DNA of 64,000 nt from an uncultured Coriobacteriaceae bacterium (GTDB lineage Bacteria; Actinomycetota; Coriobacteriia; Coriobacteriales; Coriobacteriaceae): the NCBI GenBank assembly GCA_944322305.1, contig CALUOP010000009.1, positions 1-64,000 on the forward strand, given 5' to 3'. Positions 1 to 36,842 of the stretch are shown here, in pieces. The number at the start of each line of letters is the position of its first letter. The first letter of the stretch is position 1. The notes beneath the pieces are model-generated. The model ran no database searches and had not been told where the DNA came from. It saw nothing but the letters and a program-made list of their open reading frames with translations. The translations under genes and the position numbers were made by a program.

Positions 1-600
1 AGCCGTCGCAGGGGCCGCGCGCTTTTCTCGGCAGGTGCGGCCGCGGTTAGCCGCGTTTCCGACGTCGCCGCAGGGGCTGCATGTTCTTCTCGGCAGGTGC
101 GAGGGGCTCGTCAGGCCGCGCCGCCGACGCCGCCACAAAACGCCTGCTTTTCTCGACAGACGCAAGGCGCGCGTACCTGTTTCGCAACGACCCCTGATGC
201 GGCGCGTTTTTCTCGACAGGTGCGGCCGCGGTTAGCCGCGTTTCCGACGTCGCCGCAGGGGCCGCGCGTTTTTCCCGGCAGGTGCGAGGGGCTCGCGGCG
301 TTTCCCCAGGAAACGCGTTAGGGCCTGCGCGCTTTTCTCGGCAGGCGCAAAACGGGCGCGCCTTGCGTGGGCGCGATGTCTCCCCCGCTCCCGCATCTGT
401 CGAGAAGAACCTGCCGAGAAGGCCCCGGGACGGCTCCGCGCCCTGCGACTGCCGAGAAGAACGCGCGGGCCGGCAGCCGCCGCCCCAACCCGCTCTGCAC
501 CTGCCGAGAGGAACCCGCAGAAACCGGCTCAAAACCCTCATCCTCGCTGCATCTGTCGAGAAAAACGTACGGTGTCGCAACCGCGGCCAAAACGCGCGGG
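1..600. repeat. Array 1: phased CTCGRCAG boxes, two convergent arms
   Basis: This stretch holds no credible gene. It contains six copies of a box close to TTYTCTCGRCAGRYGC in plus orientation starting at 23, 84, 148, 207, 269 and 333 (spacing 59-64 bp). The reverse complement, close to GCAYCTGYCGAGAARAA, follows at 393, 445, 497 and 549, exactly 52 bp apart; a partial copy is at 411. Positions 37-109 recur almost unchanged at 222-295, so the left arm also carries a 185-bp higher-order duplication. A different box, GTCGCAACCGCGG, as found in the 3-kb array, lies near 575. The window edge may cut the left arm. Frames reading through it are low-complexity and lack ribosome sites, and 52 bp is not a multiple of three, so I regard it as non-coding. 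Confidence 0.85.
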
Positions 601-708: not shown

Positions 709-2048
709 ATAGGACAAAAAGTGTGTATGGGCTAGTCCCAGTCCATACGGTATGGCTCGGAGCGATGCAGCTCTGACCACACTATGGCATCTCCCCACTG
801 AGGAATGGTTTCTTGTAGCTTGTCCTGCTGATTGAGTCTCTCGTATTTAGCTCTGATAGAGCCGTCCGTCGGCATGGCACGCAGGATCTCCGCTGCATGC
901 AAGGGGCTCGGGCTGTGCATACAGCACCACCAGAAGATCGCCTTGAGCCTGCGTTCGATAGAAAGTCCCCTATGGTCCCTGAGCATGGCTCTGAGCTGCG
1001 CGTTGGTGCCGCCTTCGATACGGTTGTTGGTGGCCGGGAGAGGGGCGAGGTGCTCTAGGCGGGGATCAAGGTAGGTGAACAGCGTCCCGGCGTTGATGAG
1101 CCGGGCGAGAGACCTCCGCGCCTTGACGAGGCGTTCATGCGCGAGGACGTACCTTCCCTCCTCCGTCTTCGTCCTCTCCGATAGGAAGTCGTCCCACCTC
1201 TCGGGCCACGCAAGGAATGCCTCCGCCCACCCCTGCGCCTCTTTAAGGGTGGTGATGCCGAGCAGCGCTTTGGCAAGGCCGTACAGCTCTGCGCCCGCCT
1301 GCGTGCGGGGCTTCGAGGTGGTGTAGCGCTTGACCTGAGAGAATGCGTGGAAGATGCAGCGCTGGTGGTGCGCACGGGGCCATGTCGCACGGGGCCATGT
1401 CTTCCTGAGCGCCTTCGGAAAGCCGTCACCCCCGTCCGAGACGACCACCTCGGGGGCGGCTATGCGCTGCATCAAGGCCGACCAGCCGCGGCTGTTCTCC
1501 GCACGGCATAGGTGCCATCCCAGTACATGGCGCTCATCCGAGGCGATGAGCACGACGGCCTTTCTTCCGAGGTGTATGCCGTCAACGTAGATGACGCTTC
1601 GCGGCTCCTCTATCTTGGGCGGCATGGGCCATATATCCCAGAAGGGCGCGCACTTCCTTCTGAAGGTCCTGCCGGCCCCCGGCATATCTGATTGACGTTT
1701 GCGGGACAAAAGCCACGCCAGAAAGGTTCTAAGGTCCTTGGCAGAGGTGTCGATCTTCCTCACCGAGCTCGAGCCGCAGCACCTACATCTGAAGCGAGTC
1801 CTGCCAGCTTTCGTTTTCCCGTTCTTAACCATATTGGAGCCGCAAACAGGGCAGCGGGGATTTCCCATGGCAACATCGCAGATAGGCCAACTTCACTGTT
1901 AGAAACAACATGGTCTACCTGCGAGGATATGAAATCCTACACACACCTTTTGTCCAGGCAAAAAGTTGGGACGATGCAACTCGAAGAGGCAATTTATAGG
2001 TATCTACCTGCAGTGATACAGGAATCCCATACACACTTTTTGTCCTAT
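709..2048 (-). mobile_element. IS256-type insertion sequence (IS1249-like)
   Basis: A 23-bp perfect terminal inverted repeat lies at 709-731 and 2026-2048; the outer end reads ATAGGACAAAAAGTGTG inward. It encloses one transposase gene. A second, imperfect right-end copy (17 of 20 matches) lies at 1936-1955, between the transposase start and the outer end. Flanking bases show no obvious 8-9 bp target duplication at either candidate right end, so the element may be old, rearranged or have recombined with another copy. Assignment to IS256/IS1249 rests on the protein. Confidence 0.85.
732..1868 (-). CDS. IS256-family transposase with N-terminal zinc ribbon
   Basis: A DDE transposase of 378 aa that would catalyse cut-and-paste or copy-out movement of its own element. 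An N-terminal zinc ribbon (CPVC around residue 6, CRCC around 28) is followed by the acidic triad: D96 in YVDGIHLG, D145 in VVSDGGDGF and E285 in NNRIEGGTNA. This order and the NNRIEGG motif are those of the IS1249 branch of IS256. It starts at ATG 1868. One oddity is an exact 15-bp tandem duplication at 1372-1401, which adds five residues (WPRATWPRA, around 158-166) just before the conserved QRCIFHAF segment. Relatives as I remember them have one copy there, so activity may be impaired; the reading frame is intact. Confidence 0.9.
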   Translation of the reverse strand: MGNPRCPVCGSNMVKNGKTKAGRTRFRCRCCGSSSVRKIDTSAKDLRTFLAWLLSRKRQSDMPGAGRTFRRKCAPFWDIWPMPPKIEEPRSVIYVDGIHLGRKAVVLIASDERHVLGWHLCRAENSRGWSALMQRIAAPEVVVSDGGDGFPKALRKTWPRATWPRAHHQRCIFHAFSQVKRYTTSKPRTQAGAELYGLAKALLGITTLKEAQGWAEAFLAWPERWDDFLSERTKTEEGRYVLAHERLVKARRSLARLINAGTLFTYLDPRLEHLAPLPATNNRIEGGTNAQLRAMLRDHRGLSIERRLKAIFWWCCMHSPSPLHAAEILRAMPTDGSIRAKYERLNQQDKLQETIPQWGDAIVWSELHRSEPYRMDWD

Positions 2049-3002: not shown

Positions 3003-3655
3003 GCGCGGGCAACTGCCAGCGCCGGCACCGTACCTGCCGAGAAAAACGCGCGGGCTTCGTGAGTGGTGACGTTTTCGCAACCAAGCAAGGCAGTAGGCGT
3101 CGGAACCGCGACCAACCGACGGGGCCTACCGGCACACCCGCCGAGAAAAAATGCACGGGCATCTCGGGTGACGACGTTTTCACGAACAACCGGGGCGGTA
3201 GATGCCAGAACCGCGGACAACCGAGTGAGACGAGTCCGGTTGGTCGCTGTTCCGACATGGCCGATGTAGTTAGTCGCCCGAACCGCATCTAAATTCCGGA
3301 AATCCGGGAGTTGCGTGCGGCCCGGGCGACCAAGCGGAAGTTAGCAGTCGGATATGCGACCAACCGGGAGCCTAGATGTCGCACTAACGGGCAAGTAGGA
3401 GCTTCGATGTCGCAACCGCGGGCAACTTATGCTTAGACGCCGGAAAGGCGACCAACCGCCGGGGGCCACCGGTGCACCTGCCGAGAGAAATGCGCGAACT
3501 TCTCGACCGATGACATTTTCGCGACCAAGCGGGGCGATAGACGCCGCAAACGAGAGCAACTGCCAACGCCGGCGGCGTACCTGGCGAGAGTAATGTGCCC
3601 GCAGAGGGCGCGAGGCAGGAAGCTACCCCTCAGCCGCTGGCGTACCCGGCGAGAG
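3003..3655. repeat. Array 2: composite GCGACCAACCG repeats with inverted centre
   Basis: The 797-bp gap upstream of the yhcH-like gene is filled with short repeats. Composite units of about 103 bp contain, in order, a GCGACCAACCG-like box, an ACCYGCCGAGARAAA box (array-1 type, same orientation throughout), and a TTTTCGCRACCAAGC box. The ACCYGCCGAG boxes start at 3032, 3136, 3476, 3579 and 3644; the GCGACCAAC boxes lie near 3110, 3356 and 3448. The centre, about 3236-3400, has inverted TTGGTCGC...GCGACCAA and closely matches the centre of array 4. The gap contains no plausible gene. Confidence 0.82.
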
Positions 3656-13508: not shown

Positions 13509-14035
13509 AGGCGAAAAGGGGTGTTCACGCAGGAGCGCGCGGGCGAGAAGGGTGTTCGTATGAGAGCGCGCGGGCGAAAAGGGTGCTCGTATGAGAGCGC
13601 GCGGGCGAAAAGAGCGTTCATACGACAAGCGTGGGCGAAAAGGACGTTCGTACGGACGCGGTTTTGTCGGCTAAGCCTTCGTACGGTATTTTTATACCGC
13701 AATGCGACCAGCTAGCGGGGAGGCGCATGCCGTAGTGCCGCCCCTACGGGCAACTCCAGTCGTATGATTGCTTTTCTCGCCCATGCCTGTCGTATGAGTG
13801 TTGTTTTCGCCCATACCCGTCGTATGAATGCCTTTTTCGCCCACGCGGTTCGTATGGACGTTGTTTTCGCCCGGCAGATCCGTACGAATGGTGATTTCGC
13901 CCACGAAGCTCGTATACGTGCTGTTTTCGCCTGCTTGGTTCGTATGAGCCGTTATTGTCGCCCGCGTGGTTCGCATGGATGGTGATTTCGCCCATGGAAC
14001 TTGCCACGAGGCTCGCACGCACGCTCTTTTCGCCT
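13509..14035. repeat. Array 3: 30-bp GGGCGAAAAGG/CGTATG repeats, inverted arms
   Basis: The left arm carries GGGCGARAAGG boxes (GCGA starts at 13511, 13543, 13574, 13605 and 13635; 30-32 bp apart), each followed by TTCGTAYG. After a centre of about 130 bp, the right arm carries the reverse complement TTTTCGCCC (TCGCC starts at 13777, 13807, 13837, 13867, 13897, 13927, 13958, 13988 and 14030), mostly exactly 30 bp apart, each unit also containing CGTATGA. The array lies between two divergently transcribed genes. Spacer bases vary between units while both boxes persist. A frame runs through the right arm as ten-residue repeats but has no ribosome site. Confidence 0.88.
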
Positions 14036-33848: not shown

Positions 33849-34586
33849 TTAGGCCTCCGGGCAAAGGGAGAGCGCAGCCTCGTCGGCCACGATCGTAACA
33901 TCCTGGTGGAACTGGAGGATGGAGGCGGGCAGCTGCGGGGTGACCGGGCCGTACACGGCGGCCTTGAGCGCCTCGGCCTTGTCAGCGCCGGAGACGACCA
34001 CGAGGATCTTCTTGGCGCACATGATGGTGCCGATGCCCATGGTGTAGGCCTGGCGCGGCACGTCGTCGGCAGAGGCGAAGAAGCGCTTGTTGGCCTCGAT
34101 AGTGCTCTCGGTCAGGTCGACGCAGTGGGTGGTGGCGGCGAAGTCGTCGGCCGGCTCGTTGAAGCCGATGTGGCCGTTGCGGCCGAGGCCCAGAAGCTGC
34201 AGGTCCATCCCGCCGAGCGCACGGACAGCGGCCTCGTAGGTGGCGCACTCGTCGTCAGCGTCGGGGTTCTCGCCGTTCGGCACGTGGGTGTTGGCCTTGT
34301 CGATGTTCACGTGGTCGAACAGGTTCTCGTTCATGAAGTAGTAGTAGCTCTGGTCGTTGGTGCGGGGCAGGCCGCGGTACTCGTCCAGGTTGTAGGTCAC
34401 CACGTGCGAGAAGTCCACGTCGCCGGCCTCGTTGGCGGCGATCAGGTTCTTGTAGGTGCCCACCGGCGAGGAGCCGGTAGCCAGGCCGAGCTTGCTCTCG
34501 GGGTTGAGAACGACCTGAGCAGCGATGATGTTGGCTGCCTTGCGGCTCATGTCGTCATAGTCGCGCACGCGGATGATCTTGATCAT
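33849..34586 (-). CDS. nagB: Glucosamine-6-phosphate deaminase
   Basis: A 245-aa NagB converting glucosamine-6-phosphate to fructose-6-phosphate and ammonia. Motifs are LATGSSPVGTYKNL, the catalytic NLDEYRGL, GLGRNGHIGFNEP, and GADKAEALKAAVYGPVTPQLPASILQ. It is the short form typical of Gram-positives. AGAGGG precedes ATG 34586. A palindromic ACTGGTnnnnACCAGT operator and a -10 element lie upstream, suggesting control by a NagR/DasR-type GntR regulator relieved by amino-sugar phosphates. glmM, the opposing amino-sugar synthesis gene, lies beyond array 5. Confidence 0.95.
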   Translation of the reverse strand: MIKIIRVRDYDDMSRKAANIIAAQVVLNPESKLGLATGSSPVGTYKNLIAANEAGDVDFSHVVTYNLDEYRGLPRTNDQSYYYFMNENLFDHVNIDKANTHVPNGENPDADDECATYEAAVRALGGMDLQLLGLGRNGHIGFNEPADDFAATTHCVDLTESTIEANKRFFASADDVPRQAYTMGIGTIMCAKKILVVVSGADKAEALKAAVYGPVTPQLPASILQFHQDVTIVADEAALSLCPEA

Positions 34587-34839: not shown

Positions 34840-35335
34840 GCGCGTTTTTCTCGGCAGGTGCTACGGTGCGCATATTTCTCTCGACAGGTACGGCAGTGCG
34901 CACGCTTCTCTCGACAGATGCAGTCTACCTGAGCCTTTTGGGCCCAACCCTGCACACTCTTCTCGGCAGATGCAAAACCGACATGCGGCGCACTCCCCCA
35001 ACGCTTGCATCTGTCGAGAAAAACCGGGCGAAATCGTGCAACAATCCCTGCCGACGTCGCACCTGCCGAGAAGAACATGCCAACGCATCGTCAGTGGCCC
35101 CAGCCCCCTCACACCTGTTGAGAAAAACCAGCAAAACAGCGCGGCATGCGTTGCCGACGTTGCGTCTGCCGAGACAAACGCACCGACATACCACCAGCAG
35201 GTTCAGCCTTCCTGTATCTGCCGGGAAGAACGAGCGGGGCGGTCCCGCGTGCAGAAAACGCCTGCATCTGCCGAGAAGATCGCGCAGAGCCCCCCCGCGC
35301 GCAGAAAACGCCTGCGCCAGCCAAGAAAAAAGCGC
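34840..35335. repeat. Array 5: phased CTCGRCAG boxes, two convergent arms
   Basis: The same boxes as array 1. Plus-orientation boxes start at 34845, 34874, 34905 and 34957; reverse-complement boxes start at 35007, 35059, 35111, 35162, 35214, 35264 and 35314. Spacing in the right arm is 50-52 bp, and in the left arm 29, 31 and 52 bp. The centre (GCAAAACCG...CTCCCCC) resembles that of array 1. The array fills the gap between the nagB control region and the end of glmM. No gene is evident at 34690-35501. Confidence 0.88.
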
Positions 35336-35501
35336 TCCGGAGCATGAAGCCCCGGAGCGCTCGAAGCGCAATCAGCACGATGCGGTGCAACGCCATCGGC
35401 GCAACATGATCAAGGCAACGTGACGCCCTCGGCGGACGCGTCGCCCGCAGCCGGGCACGCCCGCGCAGCGCGCCCCGTCCTAGCGCCGCCGCCCCGCGCG
35501 C

Positions 35502-36842
35502 TTACTCGGCGCGGTACGGCTCGAGCGCCTTCAGCACGAAGGCGTTGGCTTGCTGGCACAGCTCGTCGGTCGGCGCCTCGGCCAGCGTGCGCACAAGCGG
35601 CTCGGTGCCGGAGGCGCGCACGAGCACGCGACCGCGGTCGCCCAAAAACTCGCCGGCCTCCTTGGCGGCAGCCAGCACCGCCGGGTCGTTCATCGCCGCG
35701 TCCTTGTCGGTCACGCGCACGTTCACCAGCTCCTGCGGGTACAGCTTCACCGGCGCCGCCAGCTGCGAGAGCGTCTCGCGCTCGGCACGGATAACCTCCA
35801 TCACGCGCAGCGAGGTCATGATGCCGTCGCCGGTGCACTCGATGTCGCCGAAGATGATGTGGCCCGACTGCTCGCCGCCCAGGCTGTAGCCGTTCTCGCG
35901 CATGCAGGCGTACACGTACTTATCGCCCACCTGCGTGGTCTCGTAAGCGAGGTGCGCCTGATCGAACGCCTTGAACAGGCCGTAGTTGCTCATAACGGTA
36001 GGCACCACGGTACCGGCGGTGAGGCGACCGTGCTTGTTGAGGTACACGCCGCACACGTAAAGGATGAGATCGCCGTCGACCACGTTGCCGCGCTCGTCCA
36101 CCGCCAGGCAGCGGTCGGCGTCGCCGTCGTAGGCAAAGCCCACGTCCAGGCCCTGCTCAACCACGTGGCGGCGCAGACGGTCGATGTGGGTGGAGCCGCA
36201 GTCCACGTTGATGTTGAGGCCGTTGGGCGCGTTGTTGATCACGCGGACGTCGGCGCCCAGCGCGTCGAACACCGGCTTGGCCACCGAGGAGGCGGCGCCG
36301 TTTGCGCAGTCCAGGCCGATCTTGACGCCCTGGAGGGAGAAGTTGGCGCTGGCGATGAGGTGGGCGATGTAGCGGTTGCGGCCCTGCATGTAGTCGATCG
36401 TGGAGCCGATGGCGTCGCCGGTGGCCAGCGGCACCTCGCTCTCGCCGTCGATGTAGGCCTCGATAAGCTCAAGCACGTCCTCGTCCATCTTGTAGCCGTC
36501 GCCGTTGACGAGCTTGATGCCGTTGTCGGTGTAGGGGTTGTGGGAGGCCGAGATCATGATGCCGCAGTCGAAGCGGCCGTCGAGCGTCTCATAGGCCAGG
36601 CCCGGCGTGGGGATGACGTGCAGCATGTACACGTCGGCGCCGGAGGCCACGAGACCGGCGGTGAGCGCCGACTCGAACATGTAGCTGGAGCGGCGGGTGT
36701 CCTTGCCCAGGACCACGCGCGCCTTCTTGCCCTGCCGCGCGCCGTAGTACCAGCCCACGTAGCGGCCGATCTTGAAGGCGTGGTCAACCGTGAGCCCCAC
36801 GTTGGCCTCTCCACGGAAGCCGTCGGTGCCGAAGTACTTCAT
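35502..36842 (-). CDS. glmM: Phosphoglucosamine mutase
   Basis: A 446-aa GlmM that makes glucosamine-1-phosphate for peptidoglycan. It has the start KYFGTDGFRGEANVGLTVDHAF, the phosphoserine loop GIMISASHNPYTDNGIKL, the metal-binding loop FAYDGDADRCLAVDERG, the sugar loop GGEQSGHIIFGDIECTGDG and the phosphate site VRASGTEPLVR. AAAGGAG precedes ATG 36842. The leader carries a 9-bp hairpin right after a TACAAT -10 element. Its placement next to nagB, across array 5, groups opposing amino-sugar reactions. Confidence 0.97.
   Translation of the reverse strand: MKYFGTDGFRGEANVGLTVDHAFKIGRYVGWYYGARQGKKARVVLGKDTRRSSYMFESALTAGLVASGADVYMLHVIPTPGLAYETLDGRFDCGIMISASHNPYTDNGIKLVNGDGYKMDEDVLELIEAYIDGESEVPLATGDAIGSTIDYMQGRNRYIAHLIASANFSLQGVKIGLDCANGAASSVAKPVFDALGADVRVINNAPNGLNINVDCGSTHIDRLRRHVVEQGLDVGFAYDGDADRCLAVDERGNVVDGDLILYVCGVYLNKHGRLTAGTVVPTVMSNYGLFKAFDQAHLAYETTQVGDKYVYACMRENGYSLGGEQSGHIIFGDIECTGDGIMTSLRVMEVIRAERETLSQLAAPVKLYPQELVNVRVTDKDAAMNDPAVLAAAKEAGEFLGDRGRVLVRASGTEPLVRTLAEAPTDELCQQANAFVLKALEPYRAE

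Follow-up and report, generated by a model that had tools for sequence, protein, structure and literature searches.

The gap between nagB and glmM in an uncultured Coriobacteriaceae bacterium of the gut holds an array of short, regularly spaced boxes (array 2, 34840-35335), which we analysed within a contiguous stretch of 64,000 nucleotides (contig CALUOP010000009.1, positions 1 to 64,000; hereafter, the window) and in related genomes. Array 2 is probably a solo, orphan module of the kind that forms the ends of a small nuclease-encoding repeat element; binding, cutting and copying are the steps that we infer in this reading. Four box types each flank a nuclease gene on both sides, and box type and enzyme match by genome.

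Boxes were called by scanning with a 24-nt position weight matrix (PWM). The A box is 24 bp long, TTGCAYCTGYCGAGAARAACGYGC, and is written YYGCAYCTGYCGAGAARAACGYGC for array 2, where four minus-strand copies and seven plus-strand copies form two inverted arms whose GYGC ends point outward (Table 1). A preliminary description of this locus, made by reading the sequence alone, had given the right arm seven boxes at 50-52 bp, in agreement with the measured steps of 52/52/51/52/50/50; of its left-arm steps of 29, 31 and 52 bp, the last was recovered and the other two measured 30 and 30. The seventh right-arm box is degenerate and doubtful, because it overlaps the T-run of the glmM terminator and scores 16.5 versus at least 27 for all other boxes. 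Since this terminator overlaps the last box, array 2 fills the gap from the terminator to nagB. No A array was found next to glmM in the named relatives. With up to 3 mismatches allowed, the window contains 24 box matches, whereas 100 dinucleotide shuffles gave 0.28 on average and never more than 3; the earlier judgement that chance was unlikely holds.

The same box is dispersed over the genome from which the window comes (G000; 2.35 Mb, Coriobacteriaceae, with a GlmM 93% identical to that of Enorma phocaeensis). The A-box model gave 125 matches, most of them within about 18 intergenic arrays (a minimum estimate, like all array counts here, from sequence read around box matches), and the full A box was found 75 times at up to 1 mismatch, compared to 0 for a reversed control. 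Minus boxes usually lie on the left and plus boxes on the right. Of the 80 steps between boxes on the same strand, 41 measure exactly 52 bp; the rest are 30/32, 40/41, 50/51 or 60-63 bp, apart from a few that are longer. The 18 different step lengths fall in phase with a pitch of 10.4-10.5 bp (Rayleigh z 8.5), and the commonest junction step between minus and plus boxes is 53 (7/14). The preliminary description had seen one spacing rule at two loci. As the left steps of array 1, another A array of the window (62/63/60/62/63, with right steps of 52), differ from those of array 2, what the arrays share is a spacing close to whole helical turns and not one fixed step, and this rule concerns about 18 arrays instead of two. 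That arrays 1 and 2 use the same box with unrelated spacers was confirmed by the PWM scan and the spacer comparison; the C-rich centre is likewise common to both, but it is not found in the other A arrays and was dropped as a family feature.

The 28-bp spacers of the 52-bp steps are 29% identical when adjacent and 34% when taken from different arrays, with 26% in shuffles and about 70% for the boxes. The step has thus been kept while the spacer sequence was lost, which is not what simple tandem duplication would give. An array at G000:C2:335071 matches bases 252-585 of array 1 with 79% identity across 334 bp, including the spacers. The genes adjoining the arrays have nothing in common (DNA polymerase I, leucyl-tRNA synthetase, thymidylate synthase, HypC/HypF, GroES, purine and porphyrin genes), the gaps that hold arrays are tandem, divergent and convergent alike, and space before the next gene start tends to remain.

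Family B and further arrays were found by a de novo scan of loci around box matches. Two A arrays of G000 enclose an open reading frame (ORF; L156 6066-7058, G000:C4:183065-184051, the A nuclease gene), and two B arrays enclose another (L226 4263-5378, the B nuclease gene), an arrangement repeated in G003 (L228). In G001 and G002, the arrays upstream of nagB enclose a related nuclease gene, each with its own box type. The enclosed proteins belong to one family (alignments A3 and A4), which has about 1-14 copies in 65 of the 80 genomes searched. When the 1.5 kb upstream of a gene was compared with the 1.5 kb downstream (E up to 1e-5), a flanking repeat was present for 16 of 29 nuclease genes but for only 1 of the 111 controls (Fisher P 2.4e-12), a comparison that is indicative, the nuclease genes coming from many Coriobacteriia genera and the controls from the window's genus. 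Examples of these flanks, which we read as recent copies, measure 361 bp in G068 (96% identity, inverted, with a lone copy nearby at 91%), 202 bp in G069 (L259; 92%, direct) and 86 bp in G029 (L261; 95%, direct). A common centre (52-68% identity) is seen in four A arrays whose turn is 105 bp, including the one adjoining the A nuclease gene, and in three lone A arrays the centre matches that of the module beside this gene (57-58% identity). The slot next to nagB contains 288 bp and no array in G003, an array only in G000, and array plus nuclease gene in both G001 and G002. Because the G003 junction is not clean, the slot documents presence and absence, not mechanism.

Repeat abundance follows the presence of the nuclease, with one exception. 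The A nuclease was found only in G000 (best congener match 32%), as was the A box: its 75 full copies compare with 0, 0 and 1 in three congeners and with at most 3 in any other of the 398 sampled Coriobacteriia genomes. Viral contigs contained neither a full A box nor a relative of the nuclease, and plasmid and phage records held no DNA similar to the array. The B nuclease occurs in G000 and G003 (73% identical), as does the B box, with 127 copies in G000, 74 in G003, 1 in G001 and 0 in G002. The G001 box, TAGGATCGACGNTNTTYTCGCC, has 39 matches in G001 versus 1-4 in its congeners, while the G002 box, CCGTATCGANNNNNNTTTTGCGCA, has 74 in G002, 28 in G001, which is the exception, and 2-10 in six other genomes (controls, 0-4 per genome). 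The units of the box rows are 24-25 bp long and non-palindromic. The core CTGCCGAGAAGAAC was also considered as an A box in other Coriobacteriales families and rejected: some matches are coding (L115), others adjoin nuclease genes (L181, L186), and the full 22-mer is not enriched. At L180, L183 and L187, in genomes of such families that have no A arrays, sites resembling CTGCCGAGAAGAAC and sharing the A-box core form inverted pairs between genes.

The B box, TTCGTATGARYGNNNTTYTCGCCCA, is repeated at exact 30-bp steps, with the minus arm on the left and the plus arm on the right, and in most B arrays the centre, about 100 bp long, is bordered on one side by a palindrome formed by one double box with an offset of 17 bp. 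Eight B arrays of G003 and one of G000 have a common centre sequence. The preliminary description had proposed an alignment of related strains, in which boxes and spacing should be kept while spacers drift; this check, made on family B, gave that outcome. Five array pairs at corresponding places in G000 and G003 gave identities of 86% for boxes and 35% for spacers, the same as for random unit pairing (84% and 33%), and the genes nearby are about 80-89% identical. The box identity is partly built in, as the arrays were found by box scanning, and the step kept over randomised spacers is the stronger point. A centre motif, TTTCCGCAGGTAA, was matched at 10/13 positions or better by 5 of the 34 B centres, versus 1.7% in shuffles, which is only suggestive. 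The same motif, exact or at 12/13, recurs within or next to arrays that differ in box type and genus (L166 core, L206 about 1592, L207 about 1280 and L261 about 1403) and is a candidate action site. The B array between hypF and hypC (L215 in G000, L238 in G003) is inverted relative to its neighbours in one species, with a centre that is recognisably the same.

Single members of the nuclease family mostly gave no Pfam match. Taken together, 23 of 31 matched MTES_1575 (best E 1e-4) and 16 of 31 matched DUF559 (best E 2e-7), a weak but consistent signal, and no Y1 transposase family was among the Pfam matches of these 31 members. The nearest solved relative by profile was PDB entry 3r3p, 'Mobile intron protein' (E 7e-4), which we take to be I-Bth0305I, followed by 3hrl (E 2e-3). 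Residues E224, D269, H287 and D296 are present in 31/31 members and E280 in 30/31, in the acidic E...D...E order of PD-(D/E)XK enzymes. A Vsr/DUF559-type PD-(D/E)XK endonuclease is thus a reasonable reading of the flanked gene. The anti-phage defence models of PADLOC gave few and weak matches on the 31 members (mREase_II 3/31, AbiEi 1/31). In comparisons of different species, identity is lower in the N-terminal part than in the nuclease part (62% vs 85% and 28% vs 58%), so that the former changes faster, as would be expected if the N-terminal part reads the changing box.

A complete unit would consist of a module, the endonuclease gene and a second module. In each module, bipartite boxes of 24-25 bp are lined up as two inverted arms with a short centre between them. 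With boxes about whole helical turns apart, bound protein would lie on one face of the DNA. The endonuclease may bind its own box type, so that two polar filaments would converge at the centre; a cut there, followed by repair, could copy the module, with or without the gene, to other intergenic sites. Lone modules would persist because they are located between genes; boxes and steps would be retained because a module must stay recognisable to be copied further, or else because the bound protein now serves the host, any host role being putative. On balance, we favour extending this reading to a class-wide Coriobacteriia family, selfish or domesticated, in which a Vsr-like endonuclease and a phased two-armed array co-evolve, with its own box for each nuclease lineage and lone arrays in tens of gene gaps per genome. 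Such a family would be a second, independent solution to the task of the tyrosine transposases associated with repetitive extragenic palindromes (RAYT/REP), probably acting on double-stranded DNA via polar filaments that meet centrally.

Several findings weigh against the nuclease-encoding element as we picture it. No clean insertion boundary or target duplication was found at the nagB slot, the only presence/absence case examined, and most A arrays cannot be aligned with one another outside the boxes. The 28 G002-type boxes of G001 form arrays without an identified cognate nuclease, and 13 of the 29 nuclease genes have no flanking repeat. Several B arrays are at corresponding places in two species, which, together with the poor alignment of the A arrays, would mean slow or old movement, or a host function. 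Finally, all of the homology of the nuclease comes from sequence profiles with modest E-values.

The chief rival is that the arrays serve the host, a nucleoid-organising or regulatory protein, perhaps a domesticated protein of the nuclease fold, coating the phased boxes on one face of the DNA for chromosome organisation or gene insulation while selection keeps boxes and steps. Helical phasing, boxes conserved over randomised spacers, the several B arrays that occupy equivalent gaps in two species and the intergenic sites with room left before the next gene start would all fit. Yet box type differs between close species, none of the three congeners has the A family, G003 has no array at the nagB slot, the flanking genes have no common theme and near-identical module copies flank nuclease genes, and we regard this explanation as unlikely. 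The preliminary description had argued for selection on position as well as sequence. The arrangement is indeed non-random and its spacing constrained, whereas the host DNA-binding regulator at two loci that was implied is not supported, because the box is species-restricted, the housekeeping genes next to the arrays are unrelated and lie in every orientation, and each box type goes with a nuclease gene that it flanks. A classical regulon, with the boxes as operators of one regulator of, for example, amino-sugar genes, would account for the strong box conservation and for the place of array 2 upstream of nagB. This idea was rejected after annotation of the neighbour genes and seems very improbable: those genes are unrelated, with tandem, divergent and convergent gaps all present, some sites have at least 11 boxes, and no sigma-70-like promoter was found in the array 2 region.

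Equally improbable, in our estimation, is a structured RNA or single-strand hairpin (terminator or REP-like) whose function lies in the fold of the inverted arms. The single-stranded DNA fold of the inverted arms does beat shuffles (z -4.5), as do the B arrays folded as RNA (z about -9 to -11), but such a fold follows from inverted boxes, a phasing of 10.4-10.5 bp belongs to double-stranded DNA, the arms differ in length and the steps are uneven, and no Rfam family was matched in eight array loci. We give the least credence to neutral debris of tandem duplication, in which the equal steps would merely come from duplicated units and the boxes be a remnant. Some duplicate units do exist, namely a 97-bp internal repeat in array 1 (92%) and the adjacent 50-bp units of array 2 (80% identical). 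Against this, neighbouring 52-step spacers (0.29) are no more alike than those of different arrays (0.34) while the step is still exactly 52, family B steps are constant though the spacers have lost their similarity, and neither inverted arms nor a single palindromic junction box nor shared B centres are made by tandem duplication.

Among known systems, the closest parallel is that of REP sequences and RAYT (TnpA-REP), together with REPINs and bacterial interspersed mosaic elements (BIMEs) (PMC2817692, PMC3116915, PMC8266576). In RAYT systems, a nuclease gene is flanked by its own repeats and repeat abundance follows the gene (PMC2817692). Here, too, a nuclease gene lies between two cognate repeats, over 100 dispersed intergenic copies exist, species-specific types are tied to the gene and inverted arrangements occur. 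Differently from RAYT, a Y1 HUH tyrosine transposase of the IS200/IS605 type, the array-linked nuclease appears to be of the Vsr/DUF559-type PD-(D/E)XK fold; instead of a REP, a single-strand hairpin of 20-40 nt, there is a long row of phased boxes of double-strand type in inverted arms, and the flank copies are direct as well as inverted. By analogy, the array/nuclease element would work like REP/RAYT, but it is not a member, because nuclease fold and repeat form differ. EDxHD (Vsr-like) homing endonucleases of the I-Bth0305I type (PMC6083498; Taylor 2011 as cited in PMC9403480) are comparable by the profile match to 3r3p and because free-standing selfish nuclease genes are known in the EDxHD group; the present family differs in having no intron or intein host, many dispersed arrays versus one allelic target and about 200 extra N-terminal residues.

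The several bipartite inverted sites also resemble transposon ends, but no DDE transposase gene was found, and a full two-armed module stands on each side of the gene as well as alone elsewhere. Ends of the Tn7/Mu type carry several transposase sites, bipartite, about 22-25 bp long and inverted between sides. A DDE insertion sequence or a miniature inverted-repeat transposable element (MITE) has fixed terminal inverted repeats and a target duplication; arms here vary in box number between arrays, and no duplication was seen at the nagB slot, the one slot examined. Clustered regularly interspaced short palindromic repeats (CRISPR) share short repeats and unrelated spacers of constant length, whereas here the repeats are about 70% alike, in two inverted arms, at many loci and with variable steps, and a true CRISPR array is present separately in G000. 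No earlier description of the nuclease/phased-array pairing was found in the open-access literature, subscription papers being outside the search, and we provisionally consider it novel.

If the proposal is correct, an uncharacterised nuclease family, present in the Coriobacteriales including gut bacteria, gains a partner sequence, and its function becomes directly testable with one protein, one box and a predicted cut region. A further bacterial repeat system would then stand beside REP/RAYT and account for a large share of the intergenic repeats in the Coriobacteriia genomes analysed, and one genus would offer several natural nuclease/box pairs of different specificities. In bacteria, the geometry of a DNA face can rarely be read directly from sequence, and the whole-turn spacing would offer such a case.

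Table 1. Array features and neighbouring genes in the window.
Feature	Position	Strand	Details
Array 2, left arm	34840..34975	-	A boxes at 34840, 34870, 34900, 34952; steps 30/30/52; PWM scores 28-35; pattern search with shuffles
Array 2, centre	34976..35004		29 bp between arms; junction step 53; PWM scan
Array 2, right arm	35005..35285	+	A boxes at 35005, 35057, 35109, 35160, 35212, 35262; steps 52/52/51/52/50; PWM scores 27-35
Array 2, seventh right-arm box, degenerate	35312..35335	+	PWM score 16.5; step 50 from sixth box
glmM intrinsic terminator	35330..35362	-	14-pair stem and T tail
nagB, glucosamine-6-phosphate deaminase	33849..34586	-	NCBIfam TIGR00502; start 254 bp from array 2
glmM, phosphoglucosamine mutase	35502..36842	-	NCBIfam TIGR01455
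Array 1 (A family)	17..570		Minus boxes at 17/79/142/202/264/327; plus boxes at 391/443/495/547; PWM scan
Third A array, decayed	3028..3598	+	Good boxes at 3028 and 3472, weak box at 3575; PWM scan
Family-B array	13540..13995		Minus boxes 13540-13632, plus boxes 13761-13972; 30/31-bp steps

Window positions 1-77 are identical to the right end of contig C8 (G000:C8:111304-111380); the contig thus breaks inside array 1, probably as a result of its 97-bp internal repeat. An IS1249-family transposase gene (732-1868, minus strand; NCBIfam NF033544) adjoins this array. The decayed A array (3028-3600) is interleaved with other short repeats, GCGACCAA, at multiples of about 30 bp, which are perhaps a further box family. 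Elsewhere in the genome, two A arrays 1.5 kb apart (G000:C3 264-266 kb; L154 5585-6448) enclose a non-nuclease ORF with weak likeness to an AAA ATPase and a winged helix. A 61-bp repeat beside one A array was considered as an array feature and rejected, being a CRISPR array: this long, type I-E-like array (L150 5690-8650; G000:C1, about 13.7-16.6 kb; repeat GGGATCATCCCCGCTGACGCGGGGAGCAC, 61-bp period) directly adjoins the A array and the DNA polymerase I gene. The family-B array of the window has as its neighbours the gene of a family 3 solute-binding protein and one encoding a phosphoribosyltransferase domain.
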